From IMG/VR virus record IMGVR_UViG_3300046522_000097, positions 1 through 31,928 of that record: a DNA stretch of 31,928 bases. The stretch is one strand, 5' to 3'. Numbering within the stretch: the stretch's first letter is position 1; each line of letters opens with the position of its first letter. The notes under the pieces were generated by a model. It was not told where the DNA came from and did not search any database. It was given only the letters and a program-made list of their open reading frames with translations. This document shows, piece by piece, positions 8,185 through 31,928 of this stretch. The translations under genes were made by a program, and so were the position numbers. This stretch comes from a virus.

Positions 8185-8817
8185 TTATCGGAATTTGAAT
8201 TCTTCCGAAAGAAGCCAAGACCAACTATCCCCGGCATGGATGTGGTAAACCATTGAACGAGAAACGCCGAAAAGCTTTGCAATAGACTTTTGCGATTCTT
8301 TGCCTTTCAAGGCATATATTCCCTTAGCAACGGCCTCTGTTATCTTGGCCCCGGGGTGGCTTTCACCCCTGCTAACAGTCCCATGACTGATCTTGTCGGC
8401 GTTGTTCTCTTTCGAAGTTTTCCAAGATAGATGTCCCTTAGCTACGCAACCAAGGTGCCCATTGCCGCAAGAATGGGCGGCCTCATGCTCTGTCGTCGGA
8501 GGGGGACCATGGATTTCTTCACATACGCGCCTGGAGACGATCGCCGATTTTCCGCTGTCCTTTTTTATCACCCCGTAACCTTTGCGCTCTCGCGCGTAAG
8601 GCCATATTAGGCATTCAACGCCTTCATAGTTTAAAACCGTCTCGTCATAGAACCTTTGAGGCTCGCCATCTTGCGCCCGATCAAAACCGCCTAGAGGATC
8701 CCCATGCCTCCAGTGCCGCAGATAATGCGCGTTGCAATAACCCTTTTTGCCGGCGGCTCGCCAATGAGCGTTTCCCTTGCACCCATCTACAGAACATGCT
8801 TTGAATTCATCAGCCAT
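8185..8817 (-). CDS. HNH homing-type endonuclease
   Basis: This 210-residue protein looks like a free-standing HNH homing endonuclease. An N-terminal zinc finger (CSVDGCKGNAHWR...YCNAHYLRHWRHG, residues 8-39) is followed by a central HNH region with HEAAHSCGNGHLGC and KGHLSW, then KENNADK. The C-terminus from about 150 (GESHPGAKIT...QKSIAKLFGVSRSMVYHI) is a helix-turn-helix of the kind used for site recognition. It lies alone between virion genes, the usual place for a selfish gene, and is separated from the upstream gene by a strong hairpin. It is not expected to contribute to the particle. Confidence 0.85.
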   Translation of the reverse strand: MADEFKACSVDGCKGNAHWRAAGKKGYCNAHYLRHWRHGDPLGGFDRAQDGEPQRFYDETVLNYEGVECLIWPYARERKGYGVIKKDSGKSAIVSRRVCEEIHGPPPTTEHEAAHSCGNGHLGCVAKGHLSWKTSKENNADKISHGTVSRGESHPGAKITEAVAKGIYALKGKESQKSIAKLFGVSRSMVYHIHAGDSWSWLLSEEFKFR

Positions 8818-9280: not shown

Positions 9281-11097
9281 GAGATAATTCCGCCGGTATC
9301 ATAGAGGATTTCGGTTCTGATGATTTCAGTATCCAGCGGGATCAAGGATCCGCTTGTCACTTGAACATCAGGAGCGACCGCATATCCCATGCCGCCTGTG
9401 GATTCCCAATCAAGGTTGGTGAGGAGCTGAGTGTTGCCGCCCCATGTGGATTGTCCCCATATCCCGGTTCCCCACTCCGAAGTTGATTCGATCATGGGCG
9501 CTTGAGGTGGAGAGAGGAACTGCGTCACGTAGTCGAATTGCATGTTGCCCTGAGGCTCGACAAGGCGAGGACCACGAGAGAAGACGCGGATATTATTGAC
9601 GACCTTCAGCGAGGCCGGTGAGCCAAGGTCATCGAACAGCGGGATATAGGTCGCCGTGTAGTTGACGCCCTGATCTGAGCCGGTGACGTTTGCCTCGATT
9701 ACCTTTCCGTTGCCAGAGCCGAAGAATAGACGCCCTTGGAAGGTCTCAAGGCAATTGCCATCCCAGTTGGTATAAGCCGTCCAGGCTCCAGTGCGGGCAT
9801 TCGTGATGATCATCTGCGCGGGTTGATCGTTGATCGTCGGTAGCGCGATGACGACCATCTGGTTTTCTGGCCATGTCTTGCAATGCCACGCTGCCCCATC
9901 ACGAAGCGTGACAAAGTTGTTCCACTCCGTCTCAATTGGATAGGAAACCGCCGAGGGAGACAATGCAGCCACGTCCTTGAGGAGGGCTTGGGAAAGAGGA
10001 ACGAAGCCGATTGTCGTGGCAATGATCAAATCGCCGCCGCCACGGATAAACGCCTTTGCTCCTAGTGGCTTCCCAATCTTGTAAATACCAACCTTTGACC
10101 ACGTTGCGACTGTAGCCGGATCTGTGCCTTGGAACGCGCAGACTTCGCCTTCATTCGTGACGAATACGCACTGCTCCGACAAGCCGCCATCGCCAGAGTT
10201 TTCAAGCGACCATGGTTGACCGAAGAGAAGAAATCCGCCAAGCGGAAAGTTTCCGCCAAGAGGTAGCGGAGACGCCACTCCGCCAATCTGATCAGCCGGC
10301 AGGAACCATGCGTTCAGCGAGTTCTTTTCGATGAAGAACACCCGGCCTTTGAACGACCAGACATAGATTAGGTCCGCCGTATCAACGCCAGTAATGCCAA
10401 CGAACAACTGAATGGCAGCACCATTGACCGTAGCAGAGCCGCCACCCCCGGAGATGATTTCGTTATCCTGAAACGTGCCGGTGATGTCCCCTACGATCAG
10501 CCAGCCCGTAGAACCGTTATCGACGATGGAAGTAATAACCGCTGTAGCGCCGGATGTCCCGCCAGTGACAGTTGCCCCGATAGTGACGAAGTTTGCTGTC
10601 TGGGCGTCGAAATTGATGCGGTTTACACTTTGGTTCGTGATGGCGTACCATGCTGTCCCATCGTAGATATGCATCGGGTCTGAGCCATTAACGGCAATGA
10701 GGAAGTCTCCACCAGTCGTAGAGAACTGCGTGAAATTCCAGTTTCCGTCCGTCAAACCCGTAACATCAGCAACAGGGCTTACATTCGGGTCAACGACCGA
10801 GGTGATATCGTAAATGGCATTATCCGTAGCGCCGAATAGCCGCTCATCATTGCCGCTGGAATATTGCATCAGCGTATCAACCGATAGAGAGCCATCGCCT
10901 ATTGTCGCATACTTCTCAGTTCCCCTCCTGAGGAGCAGAGAAGTAGCGGTCGGGAACCAGTTCTGGAGCAGATAGGCGCCATTGATCTGGCGATTTGGTG
11001 AAGCAAGGGACTGATTGGAAATCCAGCCACTATTGGCAGCCGCAAAGCTTGCCATCTTGGAAATCAATTGAGCTGCTGAAGCTGCTGCTTTTCTCAT
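9277..11097 (-). CDS. tail hub / DNA stabilisation protein (gp10-like)
   Basis: The 606-residue protein is rich in beta-strand sequence with repeated aromatic/Gly motifs (for example LFGATDNAIYDI, DLIYVWSFKGRVFF, NCLETFQGRLFFGSGNGKVIEA), suggesting a propeller-like fold. Its place directly after the tail adaptor gene and before the ejection genes matches the P22 gp10-type stabilisation/tail protein, and the N-terminus with SPNRQINGAYLLQNWFPT is reminiscent of that group. It likely plugs the connector and carries the distal tail. Adjacent start: the upstream stop TGA is immediately followed by ATG. A second Met at residue 15 is an alternative start. Confidence 0.7.
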   Translation of the reverse strand: MRKAAASAAQLISKMASFAAANSGWISNQSLASPNRQINGAYLLQNWFPTATSLLLRRGTEKYATIGDGSLSVDTLMQYSSGNDERLFGATDNAIYDITSVVDPNVSPVADVTGLTDGNWNFTQFSTTGGDFLIAVNGSDPMHIYDGTAWYAITNQSVNRINFDAQTANFVTIGATVTGGTSGATAVITSIVDNGSTGWLIVGDITGTFQDNEIISGGGGSATVNGAAIQLFVGITGVDTADLIYVWSFKGRVFFIEKNSLNAWFLPADQIGGVASPLPLGGNFPLGGFLLFGQPWSLENSGDGGLSEQCVFVTNEGEVCAFQGTDPATVATWSKVGIYKIGKPLGAKAFIRGGGDLIIATTIGFVPLSQALLKDVAALSPSAVSYPIETEWNNFVTLRDGAAWHCKTWPENQMVVIALPTINDQPAQMIITNARTGAWTAYTNWDGNCLETFQGRLFFGSGNGKVIEANVTGSDQGVNYTATYIPLFDDLGSPASLKVVNNIRVFSRGPRLVEPQGNMQFDYVTQFLSPPQAPMIESTSEWGTGIWGQSTWGGNTQLLTNLDWESTGGMGYAVAPDVQVTSGSLIPLDTEIIRTEILYDTGGIIS

Positions 11098-26837: not shown

Positions 26838-27968
26838 TCAGGTTCTGACCGTTGGGAATTGGAAGGAATCCACAGGGAGGCCGGTTAGCCACGCCTGAGC
26901 CTCAAAGACTGTGTTGATTTCGGGAGGTACGCCGATGGCGAACTCTCTTTTCGTGCCACACTGAGCATGAAGGAAACGGCTTTTGCGGTCCAAGTCTGGC
27001 AACTGCACTTCGACCAAAGCGCCATGCTCAAGGTCTTCGTGCTCGTCGATGACTGCGGCCTGCAGTTCACGTAGGACGTTGTGCCAGCCGACTATTTCAA
27101 GCGCAGCTCGGCGCTGCTCGATATTCTGCCATGTCAAAGCCGTCTTCGCAGTCAGGCTGGCCTTGTCGTCAATCCATTCACGAGGAACACGCGTTCCATG
27201 CCATGCATAGACGCCGAAGCCGTCGCGATATTCGATTGCTGGTCCCATATCGCAGTGCAGGCGGTTTTGGTCGTCGCGGCGTAGTGTCTTTGGTCGATCT
27301 GTAATGATCGCGGCGCCAGAGAAAAACCATACCCAACCGCACGACTGAGCAATGCGCAAAAGTGGATCGATATTCTCCGTGTTGGGAAGATTGCAAACGC
27401 GGCGAAAGAACGCCAACCACGACAACCATCCGGCCTCGTGTTGGCTATAGAAAGCCCGAGAGACCTGAGCCCTGACCTGATCCCTGACCTGATCCCTGAC
27501 CTGAGCCCCGACCTGATCCCAGACCTGAGCCCTGACCTTATCCCCGACCTGATCCCAGACCTGATCCCTGACCTGATCCCTGACCTGATCCCAGACCTGA
27601 TCCCTGACCTGATCCCTGACCTGATCCCAGACCTGATCCCCGACCTGATCCCAGACCTGATCCCTGACCTGATCCCTGACCTGATCCCAGACCTGATCCC
27701 AGACCTGATCCCAGACCTGAGCCCCGACCTCCTCACCAAGCCGCGTGTTCTTCAGTATCGCGGCACCTATGGCGCCCTCATGCGGGGAAGCGAGGCGGAT
27801 GAAGAGCTTAGGCGCTGGAAGACCTGCGACCGCGTATGCGTCCTTTACGGCCTGTTCTGCAGCGTCAAAATCTGCTGGTTCCGTCGATAGACCATGGCGC
27901 AGGAATTCGTCGCGTATGATTGGTATCTGCGCTTCCTGCTCGGGGGTTAGCTTGGTGATTTTCGTCAT
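26838..27968 (-). CDS. DUF6745-like protein with tetrapeptide tandem repeat
   Basis: The 376-residue protein starts with a helical 60-residue part (PEQEAQIPIIRDEFLRHGLS), then LASPHEGAIGAAILK. Next come 22 tetrapeptide units of the form QV-[WRG]-[DA] at residues 84-171. The second half matches the DUF6745 pattern: WVWFFSGAAIITDRPKTL, then HCDMGPAIEYRDGFGVYAWHG, REWIDDK, NIEQRRAALEIVG, and a C-terminal TVFEAQAWLTGL. The repeat is in frame on both strands in all frames, which explains the spurious frames around it. Activity unknown. Strong RBS (GAGGAGAGGAA). Confidence 0.75.
   Translation of the reverse strand: MTKITKLTPEQEAQIPIIRDEFLRHGLSTEPADFDAAEQAVKDAYAVAGLPAPKLFIRLASPHEGAIGAAILKNTRLGEEVGAQVWDQVWDQVWDQVRDQVRDQVWDQVGDQVWDQVRDQVRDQVWDQVRDQVRDQVWDQVGDKVRAQVWDQVGAQVRDQVRDQVRAQVSRAFYSQHEAGWLSWLAFFRRVCNLPNTENIDPLLRIAQSCGWVWFFSGAAIITDRPKTLRRDDQNRLHCDMGPAIEYRDGFGVYAWHGTRVPREWIDDKASLTAKTALTWQNIEQRRAALEIVGWHNVLRELQAAVIDEHEDLEHGALVEVQLPDLDRKSRFLHAQCGTKREFAIGVPPEINTVFEAQAWLTGLPVDSFQFPTVRT
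27456..27719. repeat. 12-bp tandem repeat (22 units) inside the DUF6745-like gene
   Basis: The core unit is CAGGTCTGGGAT or CAGGTCAGGGAT on the minus strand, encoding QVWD or QVRD, with a few QVGD, QVRA and QVGA variants toward the edges. There is a higher order of WD-RD-RD triplets (36 bp). The unit length keeps the frame, so copy number can change without breaking the protein. Confidence 0.9.
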
Positions 27969-29322: not shown

Positions 29323-30092
29323 TGCAGCGTCCCCGTTGTTCTGTCCGTGAGCTGGTCGATAAGGTCTTGAGAAACACCGTCCTCAATCACCCATTCGTCA
29401 GGAGCGGCAGGCGGACGGAAATCCGTCTCATCCCAATTGCCCTTCCCCATGTTGCATTCGTCGCAGAGTATCTGCAGGTTCGATCGTTCGAGCCGCAGGT
29501 GCCAATATTTCGAGATCGGCTTGATGTGATCGACGACGATGCGCACCGGTGCGCCGTCAGCCGCCGTCATTCCTGGCGTAGCGCCGCAGCATTGGCAGGA
29601 GCGACCTTGCTCCTTGAGAACTTCCATGCGGACAGTCCGCCATTCCCAAGATTTATAGAATTCGTCCTTGGAGGCAGCGGACGGGTTGGCCTTCTTTTGC
29701 TTCCCGCTGCGCTCAATCACTGCCTGCAGGATTTCAGGCTTTTTATCAGCCCACGTCCTTTTGGGCCGACAACCAAACCTGTTTTGCTGCTGGATTTGGA
29801 AGCATGGATTGCATTGAACTCTGTTGTATTTCGGTCCACTCTTATTGAAGTCGCCTATTTCAGTAATGGCTTGCCCACGGTTTTTAACGACCATGTCCTT
29901 CCCGCAGTCCTTGCATGCAATGCCGAGAAGTCTTGCGTGTCCTGCACGTTTCATCACTTGCTTGTCGCCCGTAAGGCTGAACCTGATCGCGATTTCCTTC
30001 ACCGCAGCGTCAGTCTGCCAATAGGCCTTACTGATCGGAGAAAACTCCAAAGGCACAGCTATCCCTACGAATGGAGCGTCAACGATGCTCAT
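29319..30092 (-). CDS. HNH endonuclease with zinc-finger pairs, 257 aa
   Basis: Start at 30092 overlaps the Cro-like gene stop (ATGA), so it is translated with it; a longer frame from 30167 is discarded. The C-terminal half has an HNH core with its beginning in DHIKPISKYW and continuing in NLQILCDECNMGKGN. Two Cys pairs in each half (CKDCGKD...CNPC; CQCCGAT...CDEC) may bind zinc. The N-terminal part, ISKAYWQTDAAVKEIAIRFS, looks like a DNA-binding region. It is in an early operon rather than between virion genes, so it may act in early DNA processing or be a mobile endonuclease. Confidence 0.8.
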   Translation of the reverse strand: MSIVDAPFVGIAVPLEFSPISKAYWQTDAAVKEIAIRFSLTGDKQVMKRAGHARLLGIACKDCGKDMVVKNRGQAITEIGDFNKSGPKYNRVQCNPCFQIQQQNRFGCRPKRTWADKKPEILQAVIERSGKQKKANPSAASKDEFYKSWEWRTVRMEVLKEQGRSCQCCGATPGMTAADGAPVRIVVDHIKPISKYWHLRLERSNLQILCDECNMGKGNWDETDFRPPAAPDEWVIEDGVSQDLIDQLTDRTTGTLQ

Positions 30093-30307
30093 GCCGCGCT
30101 CTCCGATTTCTTGGTGCGCCTGTATTCGCTCATGAAGATTCGGATTTTCTCCGCAGTCTCCGGCCATACGCGCCCACCGGACTCCAGCCGTTTCACCAGC
30201 TCTGAATTACCAGAGGCAACCTTGCCGAAGTACGAAACACCCATGCCGGTTTCGGCTATGAACTCTGTGACTTCGGAGAGAAGATTTTCAGTAGGAGTGT
30301 TTGTCAT
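30089..30307 (-). CDS. Cro-like early regulator, 72 aa
   Basis: The start at ATG 30307 faces the repressor gene across the shared operators. The product has GMGVSYFGKVASGNSELVKR followed by LESGGRVWPETAEKI, a short helix-turn-helix related to phage Cro/XRE proteins. It has no further domain. A longer in-frame start (30484) would run through the operators and is rejected. The gene is the first of the leftward early operon and is probably the competing lytic regulator at the operator array. Confidence 0.75.
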   Translation of the reverse strand: MTNTPTENLLSEVTEFIAETGMGVSYFGKVASGNSELVKRLESGGRVWPETAEKIRIFMSEYRRTKKSESAA

Positions 30308-30314
30308 GACGTCC

Positions 30315-30342
30315 ACTATATCCTCTAAAGCGGATACGTCAA
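30315..30342 (-). promoter_or_regulatory. leftward early promoter (PR-like)
   Basis: On the minus strand TTGACG and TATAGT are spaced by 16 bases, with the operator 30319-30336 filling the spacer. Predicted initiation lies just before the Cro-like ATG. Very close to sigma70 consensus. Architecture matches the right-edge promoter at 31848-31875. Confidence 0.8.
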
Positions 30343-30387
30343 GTGTCCTCAATGAAGGACGTGCAGAAATATCCCATTTAGAGGATA
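30319..30387. promoter_or_regulatory. operator array of three sites (OR-like)
   Basis: Three palindromic sites with the half-site TATCC/GGATA: TATCCTCTAAAGCGGATA (30319-30336), TGTCCTCAATGAAGGACG (30344-30361) and TATCCCATTTAGAGGATA (30370-30387). Their centres are 25 and 26 bases apart. The sites cover the leftward promoter and the start of the repressor gene, the usual switch arrangement. Confidence 0.85.
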
Positions 30388-30395
30388 TTGTGCGC

Positions 30396-30701
30396 ATGCA
30401 AGGTAGTGACTGGAGAGCGCGTCTTGAAGACGCCATCGAAAAATCAGGGCGGTCTAAGCGCGAGATATCCCTCGCCGCCGGCAAGGGACCTGGCTATGTG
30501 TTTTCCATCCTCAGTGAGGGAAAAGATCCGACGATCGACAACCTCATCAAGATCTGCGGGGCGATTAACGTCAGCCTGACCCAGATACTTTACGGGGTTG
30601 AGATGAGTCAGGAGACTCAAGAAATCCTGTCTCTGATAGAGTCGAATCCGAACATGCGGAGCGGCATTCTTCAGATCCTTCGTGAGAAAGATAAAGCCTG
30701 A
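30396..30701 (+). CDS. XRE-family phage repressor, 101 aa
   Basis: The product starts MQGSDWRARLEDAIEKSGRS and contains a typical XRE helix-turn-helix, KREISLAAGKGPGYVFSILS, followed by KDPTIDNLIKICGAINVSL. A helical end (SQETQEILSLIESNPNMRSG) likely dimerises. It ends at 101 residues with no LexA/S24 peptidase domain, unlike lambda CI. ATG 30396 is chosen; GTG 30390 is possible. The GAGGA in the operator may serve as its ribosome site, or the mRNA may be leaderless. It should bind the operators at 30319-30387 and 31824-31871. Confidence 0.85.
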   Translation: MQGSDWRARLEDAIEKSGRSKREISLAAGKGPGYVFSILSEGKDPTIDNLIKICGAINVSLTQILYGVEMSQETQEILSLIESNPNMRSGILQILREKDKA

Positions 30702-30810
30702 TCTTTCTCAGACAGTCGCGCCGTTGCTCCTCTGTTAGGGCGCTAATGATTCCAATAAAAACAGAAACGCGCATTTTTCTTGATCTTTCATAATCGCTGT
30801 CGGCGTTCAT
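30571..30810 (-). CDS. candidate convergent protein overlapping the repressor, 79 aa
   Basis: The frame starts at ATG 30810, with a GGGG-rich stretch upstream, and ends antisense to the repressor C-terminus. Its unique first part looks real: FIGIISALTEEQRRDCLRKI is an amphipathic helix. The last part, opposite the repressor, is Ser-rich and could be a shadow. A candidate promoter lies upstream (30847-30878). I see no known family. Confidence 0.3.
   Translation of the reverse strand: MNADSDYERSRKMRVSVFIGIISALTEEQRRDCLRKIRLYLSHEGSEECRSACSDSTLSETGFLESPDSSQPRKVSGSG
30684..30709. repeat. inverted repeat at the repressor gene end
   Basis: GAGAAAGAT (30684-30692) and ATCTTTCTC (30701-30709) are exact reverse complements around an eight-base loop that contains the stop codon. 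There is no T run on either side, so terminator function is doubtful; it may mark the repressor mRNA end. Confidence 0.5.
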
Positions 30811-30846
30811 GCAATGATACCCCACCCCATTACCCCCGAGGAGAAC

Positions 30847-30878
30847 ATTATAGGAACATTATCCTAACTCGGTGTCAA
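30847..30878 (-). promoter_or_regulatory. candidate promoter with embedded inverted repeat
   Basis: The minus strand has TTGACA and a perfect TATAAT, but with 20 bases between, longer than usual, so it may need an activator. The inverted repeat TAGGA-N6-TCCTA (30851-30866) lies across the downstream part, and GAACATTAT occurs twice (30843-30851, 30854-30862). It may be the operator for the nearby ribbon-helix-helix protein. The direction is toward the candidate convergent frame at 30571-30810. Confidence 0.35.
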
Positions 30879-30981
30879 TCATCCTCCCATATTCGCGCTC
30901 CGTGCGCATGGCACATTTATGGCACACCGACACCACGATTGCACCATTTTCACATCATAGGATTTCGGCCATAAGGCGATC

Positions 30982-31236
30982 ATGCCTCAGACCGATGACC
31001 AACGACACAATTTGCGATTACCGCTCGAACTAAAAAAGAAACTAGCGCATTCGGCTGTGGACAATGGCCGGAGCATGAACGCGGAAATACTTGCCAGGCT
31101 AGAAGCATCCTTCGCGCCCGATACAGCGCGCGAGATAGAGAATCTGTTGCGTGGTCTTAGCCGCCTCGACGAGAAAGACCGGTCTGCAGCTCTAGAATTG
31201 CTCACGAAGGCCACCAAAATTCTCAGCAAGATCTAG
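30982..31236 (+). CDS. ribbon-helix-helix (Arc-like) regulator, 84 aa
   Basis: Residues 8-42 (RHNLRLPLELKKKLAHSAVD then NGRSMNAEILARLE) match the Arc/Mnt ribbon-helix-helix pattern: a beta strand that enters the major groove followed by two helices. The C-terminal half is helical and charged (REIENLLRGLSRLDEKDRSA), possibly for oligomerisation. The RBS is AAGGCGATC. It lies in the immunity region between the two operator arrays, so it is likely part of the lysogeny switch, as Arc is for P22 immI. Confidence 0.8.
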   Translation: MPQTDDQRHNLRLPLELKKKLAHSAVDNGRSMNAEILARLEASFAPDTAREIENLLRGLSRLDEKDRSAALELLTKATKILSKI

Positions 31237-31276
31237 GATTGTTTTCTTTTGGGACACTATTGGAGGAATCGAAAGG

Positions 31277-31408
31277 ATGCCTCACGTTTCCTGTGGATCG
31301 GTCTGCTACGATTTCGGTTGCGCCCCGGATTTAGAACACGATCGCCTTAATAGTATTATTATTACTCTGCCTCTAAGTGGTATCTGCTCTTTGGTGAGAC
31401 CGTTGTAA
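31277..31408 (+). CDS. candidate Cys-rich micro-protein, 43 aa
   Basis: ATG 31277 is preceded by TTGGAGGAATCGAAAGG, a strong-looking ribosome site. The product has Cys at residues 6, 10 and 15 (SCGSVCYDFGC) and one near the end. It lies 40 bases after the RHH gene and is likely on the same transcript. Short, and composition is unusual, so real translation is uncertain. Confidence 0.3.
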   Translation: MPHVSCGSVCYDFGCAPDLEHDRLNSIIITLPLSGICSLVRPL

Positions 31409-31489
31409 TCTCCGCATACCAAGAACCCCGCCGTAAGAAACAGCGGGCTCCTGGGGCGAAAGGGGTAATCTGCTCTTCGGAGCCGACCG
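31379..31489. repeat. imperfect direct repeat pair
   Basis: Two related 24-26 bp segments (31379-31402 and 31464-31489) share the GGTA(A)TCTGCTCTT core and a GACCG end. Between them, CCCGC/GCGGG (31427-31447) is a weak hairpin that on the minus strand is followed by GGTTCTT. The remainder of 31490-31682 has no gene that I can see. Confidence 0.35.
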
Positions 31490-31682
31490 CCGCTTATTCC
31501 GCAATGTGCCGCACTATAGCCAGCCGCACATCTTGAGGTCGTTTTCAGGGGCTACCTGACGATAGGGCTACCTCACCAGCTCGCGCTGCCAGAGAACCCT
31601 TGGGCCTAATCGCATCCCGTTCCTTGCCCAAGCATCAACGCACGACCGAACCGGTTCCCGTCATTTCGTGCGCTCTGTCGGA

Positions 31683-31711
31683 TTGGCAAATCGTTTCGGA
31701 TGCGTTATAAA
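31683..31711 (+). promoter_or_regulatory. strong sigma70 promoter for a short RNA
   Basis: TTGGCA and TATAAA are separated by exactly 17 bases. Predicted initiation is near 31718, about 35 bases before a terminator stem, so no protein can be made from this transcript. Confidence 0.65.
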
Positions 31712-31717
31712 AAGCAC

Positions 31718-31795
31718 CACTGGCAACGGTTCGCAAATATCCGCCAGTCAACGCCCCGACGCTCTTGCAAAGCGTGCGGGGCATTTCTTTTTCTC
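31718..31795 (+). ncRNA. candidate short RNA, about 75 nt
   Basis: The predicted transcript runs from the promoter to the terminator. Its 5' part folds as a stem ACTGG/CCAGT with an inner CGG/CCG and a small bulge (31719-31748), and its 3' part is the terminator hairpin. It lies 30 bases before the right-hand operator array, in an intergenic region with no frame. Start and end are inferred. Confidence 0.4.
31753..31795 (+). terminator. intrinsic terminator before the right-hand operators
   Basis: GCCCCGACGCT (31753-31763) pairs with AGCGT-G-CGGGGC (31771-31782), an 11-bp stem with one bulged G, seven-base loop CTTGCAA, followed by ATTTCTTTTTCTC. It isolates the rightward promoter from upstream transcription. 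Confidence 0.85.
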
Positions 31796-31823
31796 ACATC
31801 GCTCTGCACCGCACAAGGGAATT

Positions 31824-31871
31824 CGTCCTCTATAGCGGATATTGTGCTTGACATATCCTCAATAGCGGATA
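31824..31871. promoter_or_regulatory. second operator array, two sites (OL-like)
   Basis: Two sites of the repressor type: CGTCCTCTATAGCGGATA (31824-31841) and TATCCTCAATAGCGGATA (31854-31871), with centres 30 bases apart. They share the TATCCTC/GCGGATA halves with the sites next to the repressor gene. Confidence 0.85.
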
Positions 31872-31875
31872 TTCT
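31848..31875 (+). promoter_or_regulatory. rightward early promoter (PL-like), leaving the window
   Basis: TTGACA and TATTCT are 16 bases apart, with operator 31854-31871 lying across the spacer and first bases of the -10 element. This copies the arrangement at the Cro-like promoter. Transcription goes right, out of the window, so an early operon should start there. Confidence 0.8.
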
Positions 31876-31928
31876 CAGTCCATCAAACACCGACCACCCC
31901 AACGACACCCACCGGGAAACGTCGAAGG

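Follow-up and report, generated by a model that had tools for sequence, protein, structure and literature searches.

The right-hand end of a 31,928-bp stretch of virus DNA (IMG/VR record IMGVR_UViG_3300046522_000097; the whole stretch is referred to here as the window) carries what appears to be the immunity region of a temperate phage. Its central gene encodes a repressor of 101 amino acids (30396..30701, plus strand) that consists of a helix-turn-helix (HTH) domain and a C-terminal helical hairpin and has no peptidase domain. It is preceded by a gene of 72 amino acids in the position of cro (30089..30307, minus strand) and followed, tail-to-tail and overlapping the repressor 3' end, by a previously unannotated gene for a 67-residue protein, the proposed antirepressor (30571..30774, minus strand; ATG at 30774, longer starts at 30810 and 30825). 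Two arrays of operator-like sites, named OR and OL after the immunity region of phage lambda with its repressor CI, operators OR and OL and promoters PR and PL, lie on either side of the small gene. We propose, at a probability of roughly 0.73, that this is a lambda-plan immunity region of a temperate Rhizobiales phage in which induction would proceed through the small gene as a LexA-controlled antirepressor, and that the same unit is present in the run-off replication (ROR) locus of Bartonella.

The description of the protein as a 101-residue repressor without a peptidase domain, made in an earlier sequence-only reading of the window, is correct. HTH_3 is the sole Pfam domain above the cut-off (1.6e-07), and in an AlphaFold2 model with a predicted local distance difference test score (pLDDT) of 89 the HTH is followed by nothing but C-terminal helices (residues 72-83 and 85-100). 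The relatives compared below are of similar length, 98-116 amino acids in 27 phage and prophage loci and 101-105 in 36 Bartonella-type loci. The 72-residue protein is encoded by the first gene behind the PR-like promoter and has no match in Pfam or PHROGs; searches of both with four small proteins returned nothing but one PHROG at E 0.2. A gene matching it in tblastn lies at the same place in 25/27 phage loci and in none of the 36 Bartonella loci, and its position suggests that it is a Cro.

Two operator arrays at outward promoters

The five operator-like sites are 18 bp long and begin at 30319, 30344 and 30370 in the left array, which lies between the starts of the leftward cro-position gene and the rightward repressor gene, and at 31824 and 31854 in the right array at the window's edge, just as the sequence-only reading had placed them. 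Its statement that they share TATCC/GGATA halves is exact for three, namely OR1 (TATCCTCTAAAGCGGATA, 30319..30336, located by motif pattern and by model scan), OR3 (TATCCCATTTAGAGGATA, 30370..30387) and OL1 (TATCCTCAATAGCGGATA, 31854..31871). OL2 (CGTCCTCTATAGCGGATA, 31824..31841, located by model scan) has a single exact half (CGTCC...GGATA), and OR2 (TGTCCTCAATGAAGGACG, 30344..30361), the weaker site, has neither (TGTCC...GGACG). One palindromic model, TATCCTCTATAGAGGATA, seeded with these five sites and those of two relatives, fits them all. A scan for the consensus confines the exact pattern TATCC-N8-GGATA to the arrays, where it occurs three times, against an average of 0.005 and never more than 1 in 200 dinucleotide shuffles of the window.

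Each array includes a site that takes up precisely the whole 16-bp spacer of a promoter-like sequence, OR1 that of the PR-like TTGACG-16-TATAGT (30315..30342, minus strand) and OL1 that of the PL-like TTGACA-16-TATTCT (31848..31875, plus strand). The two spacer-filling sites are 1,535 bp apart and, as had been claimed, the promoters point in opposite directions and away from the repressor gene. Both match the consensus at 10 of 12 positions, and the 6-16-6 layout of the PR-like promoter was also read in relatives. Promoter-like matches by themselves are not clearly above chance in the window (3, against a shuffle mean of 1.6 with a standard deviation of 1.2), and we therefore place the weight on the operator within the spacer and on its conservation.

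To follow this arrangement through related genomes, loci were gathered by scans with the repressor, with an alignment of its relatives and with two operator patterns, and the Agrobacterium phage Atu_ph08 was added from a phage collection. The set used for counts comprises 75 loci: the window, Atu_ph08 and 73 loci (L023-L095) that were found through the repressor alone; two loci were found through their operators. Removal of three partial or doubtful relatives without sites (L070-L072), set aside before any count, and of near-duplicates leaves the 27 phage or prophage and 36 Bartonella-type loci. At a threshold of at least 18 bits OR1 is present in 25/27 phage and in all 36 Bartonella loci, and its distance from the repressor start is 76-81 bp in 24/27 and 36/36, respectively. 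Where OR1 is thus in place in the phages, OR2 (at least 13 bits) follows at +25 in 22 of the 24 loci and OR3 at +51 in 19. By a lenient rule, which accepts a site of at least 10 bits behind a TTGACA-like hexamer or a pair of at least 14 bits, OL was found in 21 of 22 phage loci and 35 of 35 Bartonella loci with sufficient sequence; one locus with OR1 (L030) has no OL that we could find. OL pairs are spaced 29-32 bp apart (28-32 bp were searched) and occur in 53 of the 75 loci, against a mean of 0.24 in 200 palindromic column permutations of the model, the maximum of which, 38/75, presumably stems from a permutation close to the true motif. The same geometry thus recurs in relatives whose repressors are as little as about 50% identical, while the distance from OR1 to the promoter-filling OL site ranges from 578 to 1,879 bp in the phages (2,505 bp to a further array in L083) and the genes within the interval vary.

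The sequence beyond the right edge fits this plan. A contig (L004) whose sequence agrees without a difference with the final 2,006 bases of the window carries, behind the OL promoter and all directed rightward, genes for Gam-like, RecT-like annealing and NinB-like proteins and an integrase (10 open reading frames, ORFs, were searched), and the corresponding promoter of Atu_ph08 is directed into a 12.5-kb run of genes (56,594 down to 44,102). This answers the question, raised by the sequence-only reading, of an early operon starting near 31882. Transcription from PL would accordingly run rightward into recombination genes and the integrase, and that from PR leftward through the cro-like gene into endonuclease, resolvase and packaging genes. 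With its geometry kept in relatives and a lambda-like PL operon beyond the edge, the OR/OL plan put forward by the sequence-only reading is well supported. The conservation of the arrays points to two regulated promoters and is neutral with respect to a loop between them.

Three further loci are of interest with regard to the arrays. L083 (IMGVR_UViG_2844454524) has, at 8398-8446 and 1.3 kb past the second array, a third operator pair accompanied by a TTGACA-like hexamer; this locus has no exact GAACN7GAAC box beside its repressor gene. L017 (IMGVR_UViG_2639762749) has four tandem operator copies 27 bp apart (2455-2553) and no repressor relative within the 6.6 kb examined. In L006, a single case, a 208-residue repressor (9983-10606) has the same HTH (56% over 48 residues) joined to a C-terminus that by eye resembles a peptidase; the locus shows no operator above threshold, no LexA box and no related small ORF downstream, and may represent an exchange between two ways of induction.

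The convergent small gene and the LexA-type box

The small gene lies between OR and OL. Its ATG is located exactly 75 nucleotides past the last sense codon of the repressor in 15 of the 27 phage loci, and in Bartonella a corresponding ORF is found in 36/36 loci, 35 of them with the start at 63 nucleotides. By eye the Bartonella ORF has a GGAG-like leader. The ratio of nonsynonymous to synonymous substitution rates (dN/dS), calculated outside the overlap with the repressor gene, is 0.50 for the 15 phage loci and 0.38 for 34 distinct Bartonella sequences, in both cases the lowest of the six frames. Moreover, a profile of the small protein can be aligned with the C-terminal hairpin of the repressor (positions 74-100 of the full repressor profile), with scores of 27.3 and 23.0 that were reached by none of 100 column shuffles in either group; the Bartonella profile also matches the isolated repressor C-terminus (hhalign probability 87%). 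Models of the small protein show two helices, with a mean pLDDT of 90-96 over residues 1-30 and of about 50-57 over the remainder.

Upstream of the small gene lies a LexA-box sequence, GAACATTATAGGAAC (30843..30857), which on the minus strand contains TATAAT. Between 50 and 200 bp beyond the stop codon of the repressor gene, the pattern GAAC-N7-GAAC occurs in 16/25 phage loci and in 34/36 from Bartonella. Shuffles gave means of 0.045 and 0.04 with a maximum of 1, and other 150-bp stretches contain the pattern in 2/1,711 and 12/2,467 cases. Since the whole window should hold one match to this pattern by chance, the case for the box rests on its position and its conservation. Its reverse complement, GTTC-N7-GTTC, is described as the LexA motif of Alphaproteobacteria (PMC8565304; this and the other articles given by PMC number are cited from extracts of their text). 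In Rhizobium mesoamericanum, which carries a close prophage relative, the box is present at lexA and uvrA, and recA has one-mismatch forms only. The DNA-binding domains of the LexA proteins of B. koehlerae and R. mesoamericanum are identical at 54 of 63 positions. Box and small gene together probably explain how a repressor without a peptidase domain can respond to SOS.

A more distant relative is found in Ochrobactrum phage POI1126 (L008), whose repressor is 28% identical; a convergent small ORF lies downstream of 2180 with GTTCN7GTTC nearby, and no match to the operator was obtained.

The Bartonella run-off replication locus

The Bartonella relatives are situated in the ROR locus of the gene transfer agent, which has been described as a phage remnant with an exonuclease, a helicase and a lambda-like origin gene (PMC3610622). 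In B. koehlerae, the sole species annotated here (L057), the genes faced on the OR side are a DUF1376 primosomal gene and one for a primase/helicase, and on the OL side a 129-residue gene and one for a YqaJ exonuclease. Inspection by eye of 35 aligned Bartonella loci shows islands of conservation at the OL pair, at OR1 and at the box. The Bartonella repressors form one clade with those of Candidatus Tokpelaia beside it (support 100/98 and 98/81, from few columns and with a midpoint root); the two Tokpelaia loci (L065, L068) encode repressors of 48-49% identity and have a PL-like site, scoring 18.3 in L065 and 13.8 in L068, and neither has an exact LexA box. These findings suggest that a phage-type switch probably controls the ROR locus. 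By gene order, the Bartonella repressor would be brrD, which has been reported to be essential (PMC6899734).

The link between box and LexA could be followed across 71 genomes of the genus Bartonella. A repressor of at least 72% identity is encoded in 57, a weaker best match (45-56%) in 8 and none in 6; of 60 loci fetched, three (G062, G048, G008; 53-57% identity, neither OR1 nor OL) were left out of the 57. All 57 have the small ORF, OR1 and, behind a TTGACA-like hexamer, a site of varying strength. LexA (PF01726) is absent from eight of them (G006, G011, G012, G014, G040, G045, G046 and G050), which have small genomes and no S24 match of LexA strength either. None of these eight has the exact box, which is present in 48 of the 49 genomes with LexA, the exception being G019 (Fisher's exact test, 5e-9, ignoring kinship); five of the eight keep a one-mismatch form of it, among other one-mismatch stretches.

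The box was also sought at other genes, in 30 lexA (L103, L106-L134) and 30 uvrA loci (L135-L164), and at recA in B. koehlerae. In Bartonella-genus genomes outside the 57 it is found at lexA in 12/12 and at uvrA in 14/14 of the loci fetched, and in ROR-bearing Bartonella at none of 18 and none of 16, respectively. The SOS regulon may thus have shrunk in the ROR-bearing lineage and, if the box is indeed that of LexA, the one in the ROR locus would be the best kept among those examined. One could go further and suppose that these bacteria have domesticated the phage switch whole and narrowed LexA towards the gating of run-off replication and gene transfer, a tentative idea that we regard as somewhat less probable than its negation. 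If it were true, a bistable repressor with a self-mimicking antirepressor would explain the stochastic firing of the gene transfer agent in a subpopulation. According to a review, gene transfer in Bartonella is switched on stochastically in a subpopulation, and ppGpp controls it "through a yet elusive mechanism" (PMC6899734). Many Bartonella genomes encode, in addition, a second short regulator that is 32-35% identical to the ROR repressor (for example G001:C1:1455211-1455492).

Proposed mechanism, alternatives and related systems

We suggest that the 101-residue repressor binds the three OR sites and the two OL sites 1.5 kb away and would shut each outward promoter by occupying its 16-bp spacer. 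The centre of OR2 is 43.5 bp upstream of the repressor start, and the figure for activation in lambda is -42; from this spacing OR2 and OR3 would be expected to provide lambda-like activation and self-limitation of the repressor. OR3 overlaps the hexamer GATATT, which, judging by its placement, could be the -10 element of a transcript that probably begins, leaderless, at the repressor start. As the repressor lacks a domain that could be cleaved with the help of RecA, induction has to be sought in a second gene. LexA at the box would keep the small gene silent; destruction of LexA in the SOS response would allow the small protein to be made, which would then pair with the repressor as a heterodimer, take the place of the partner's hairpin and so disable it, as SinI disables SinR by pairing with it. 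Antisense transcription across the repressor 3' end may help.

The two arrays persist, with the same sites, in loci whose intervals differ in length and gene content, and lambda CI uses OL and OR to loop DNA. This could be taken to mean that the repressor joins the two arrays in the same way, as the sequence-only reading had supposed. The distances show no helical phase, however, in 17 phage and 36 Bartonella loci (Rayleigh p for phages and Bartonella 0.63 and 0.58 at 10.5 bp, 0.81 and 0.61 at 10.4 bp, 0.067 and 0.51 at 10.6 bp), which makes their conservation neutral on this point. Moreover, the repressor has no domain like the C-terminal domain of CI, and two separately repressed promoters need no loop. 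Looping is thus conceivable here, but we rather doubt it.

Several observations weigh against the proposal as a whole. The start at +75 is found in only 15 of the 27 phage loci, the ORFs of 10 more relying on other, leniently chosen starts; in Bartonella another sense frame has a dN/dS nearly as low (0.45). The phage and Bartonella small-gene profiles align poorly with one another (hhalign probability 3%), and the phage profile reaches 80% with the full repressor profile but 3% with the isolated phage repressor C-terminus. The model recognises neither OR2 nor OR3 in any of the 36 Bartonella loci. The box is missing from 9 of the 25 phage loci tested, and genome-wide the pattern is not enriched, with 32 matches against 48 in the reversed control in B. 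koehlerae and 202 against 189 in R. mesoamericanum. The eight losses of LexA fall in three places of the locus tree, the backbone of which is weakly supported, so that independent events are few. Finally, the Bartonella gene transfer agent (BaGTA) has been linked to ppGpp and growth (PMC6899734), and attempts at ultraviolet induction of Atu_ph08 lysogens failed (PMC6630229). Since induction would be expected with the box, and since the extracts of that paper do not establish the existence of lysogens, we consider the latter neutral or mildly adverse.

Some of these points would be accommodated if nothing but the operator plan were real, the convergent ORF being non-functional and induction being brought about by an antirepressor encoded elsewhere, as in the Gifsy phages. 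The operator evidence does stand without the small gene, and the nine phage loci without the box are of a piece with such a view. It would leave unexplained, however, why the ORF is present in every Bartonella locus, with the same start in all but one and with a GGAG-like leader, why its dN/dS is below 1, why its likeness to the repressor survives the column-shuffle control and why the box is lost together with LexA; we hold it to be unlikely. It is less likely still that the gene acts mainly as an antisense RNA, through LexA-controlled transcription into the repressor 3' end with the protein being incidental. In all 61 loci with the ORF it does overlap repressor codons on the opposite strand, but most of the conserved part of the small protein, the one that resembles the repressor C-terminus, is encoded beyond this overlap. 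Much the same small chance attaches to the idea that GAACN7GAAC is the site of a factor other than LexA. What recommends it is the lack of the box at lexA and uvrA in ROR-bearing Bartonella, in which a LexA regulon is not shown elsewhere. Against it stand the distribution of the box, absent wherever LexA is absent and from one genome with LexA, its presence at lexA and uvrA throughout the genomes outside the 57, the close similarity of the LexA DNA-binding domains and the agreement with the published motif. We therefore prefer the reading in which LexA controls a small antirepressor from within a lambda-plan immunity region.

The likeness to lambda comprises three sites between repressor and cro, further sites at a distal early promoter, operators within promoters, outward transcription, Gam, recombination and integrase genes behind PL, and variable genes in the interval. 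Different from lambda, the repressor is a protein of 101 residues without an S24/LexA-type domain, OL has two sites instead of three, and the interval contains a convergent small gene and a LexA box, with an Arc-like gene in place of rexAB. SinR of Bacillus subtilis, in its complex with SinI (1b0n), likewise combines an HTH of the XRE type with a C-terminal helical hairpin, and SinI resembles the hairpin of SinR much as the small protein resembles that of the repressor, the resemblance here being weaker when the phage C-terminus is taken alone. What sets the present system apart is that it is a phage switch with the antagonist gene convergent with the repressor gene and adjoining a LexA box. 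In a Foldseek search with the repressor model the SinR chain 1b0n_A ranks fourth (E 0.0024), and SinR accounts for three of five matches in a profile search of the PDB, through the HTH; the VIA alignment to 1b0n_A covers residues 5-69 only, VIA matches in general falling mainly within residues 1-69, the HTH half, so that this program shows no match to SinR for the C-terminal half. The repressor of a Salmonella temperate phage, 5d4z, also a short phage repressor, has the highest query TM-score among the 50 matches listed (0.62 over 96 columns; E 0.032). As no Foldseek match reaches E 0.001, these structural matches are leads. We take 5d4z to be Rep of phage SPC32H, which is controlled by an antirepressor.

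With Gifsy-1 and Gifsy-3, whose repressors GfoR and GfhR are countered by the antirepressors GfoA and GfhA (PMC3121763), the system shares a short non-cleavable repressor and, here by prediction, a small antirepressor under direct LexA control. It differs from them in the location of the candidate antirepressor gene, which is placed within the immunity region between OR and OL, where it converges with the repressor gene and overlaps it, and in the resemblance of the candidate protein to the C-terminus of the repressor itself. Atu_ph08 (MF403009) has the same five sites, the small gene and the LexA box, and its repressor (AUZ95489.1) is 70% identical; its interval gene, by contrast, is annotated as a "putative periplasmic protein" and is probably gp71, called a Clp protease in PMC6630229, where gp1 and gp65 are named as candidate regulators. 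The Bartonella ROR locus (brrA-G; PMC3610622, PMC6899734, PMC2697382) has OR1, the OL pair, the small gene and the LexA box in the same order around a repressor that is 52-60% identical, but has neither a relative of cro nor recognisable OR2 and OR3. In these articles the words "repressor" and "operator" are absent from PMC3610622 and PMC2697382, and "repressor", "operator" and "LexA" from PMC6899734.

Operators in two arrays are thus known from lambda and, according to PMC3121763, LexA-controlled antirepressors from the Gifsy phages. As far as our literature searches show, their combination inside one immunity region is new, although the original 2017 paper on BaGTA or two papers on the repressor of phage 16-3 may contain an earlier description, and so are a candidate antirepressor encoded tail-to-tail with the repressor and similar to the latter's C-terminus, and a switch of this kind in the Bartonella gene-transfer locus. 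For Bartonella gene transfer this provides a specific switch, with its sites, its repressor and a candidate for the antirepressor all named. For Atu_ph08 it indicates which protein is likely to be the lysogeny repressor. It also suggests how SOS could act on a non-cleavable repressor, and is an example of the operator layout of lambda being retained by a repressor that lacks the C-terminal domain of CI.

Of the remaining features near the switch, the 84-residue Arc-like (ribbon-helix-helix) gene in the interval (30982..31236, plus strand; Pfam Arc, 7.4e-13) is probably a passenger. We considered it as a component of the switch, along the lines of immI of phage P22, and rejected it: relatives are found between OR and OL in just 3 of the 27 phage loci, the window included (100%, 98% and 40% identity), and in none of the 36 Bartonella loci. 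A terminator-like stem-loop (31763..31781, plus strand) lies just ahead of the right array, and a similar stem was read by eye in L083; terminator-like matches are near chance in the window (4, against a mean of 1.8 with a standard deviation of 1.5), and an Rfam search of 2 kb around the arrays gave no match. Further to the left, at 26838-27968, the phage genes of the window include one for a DUF6745 protein (Pfam, 4.9e-32).

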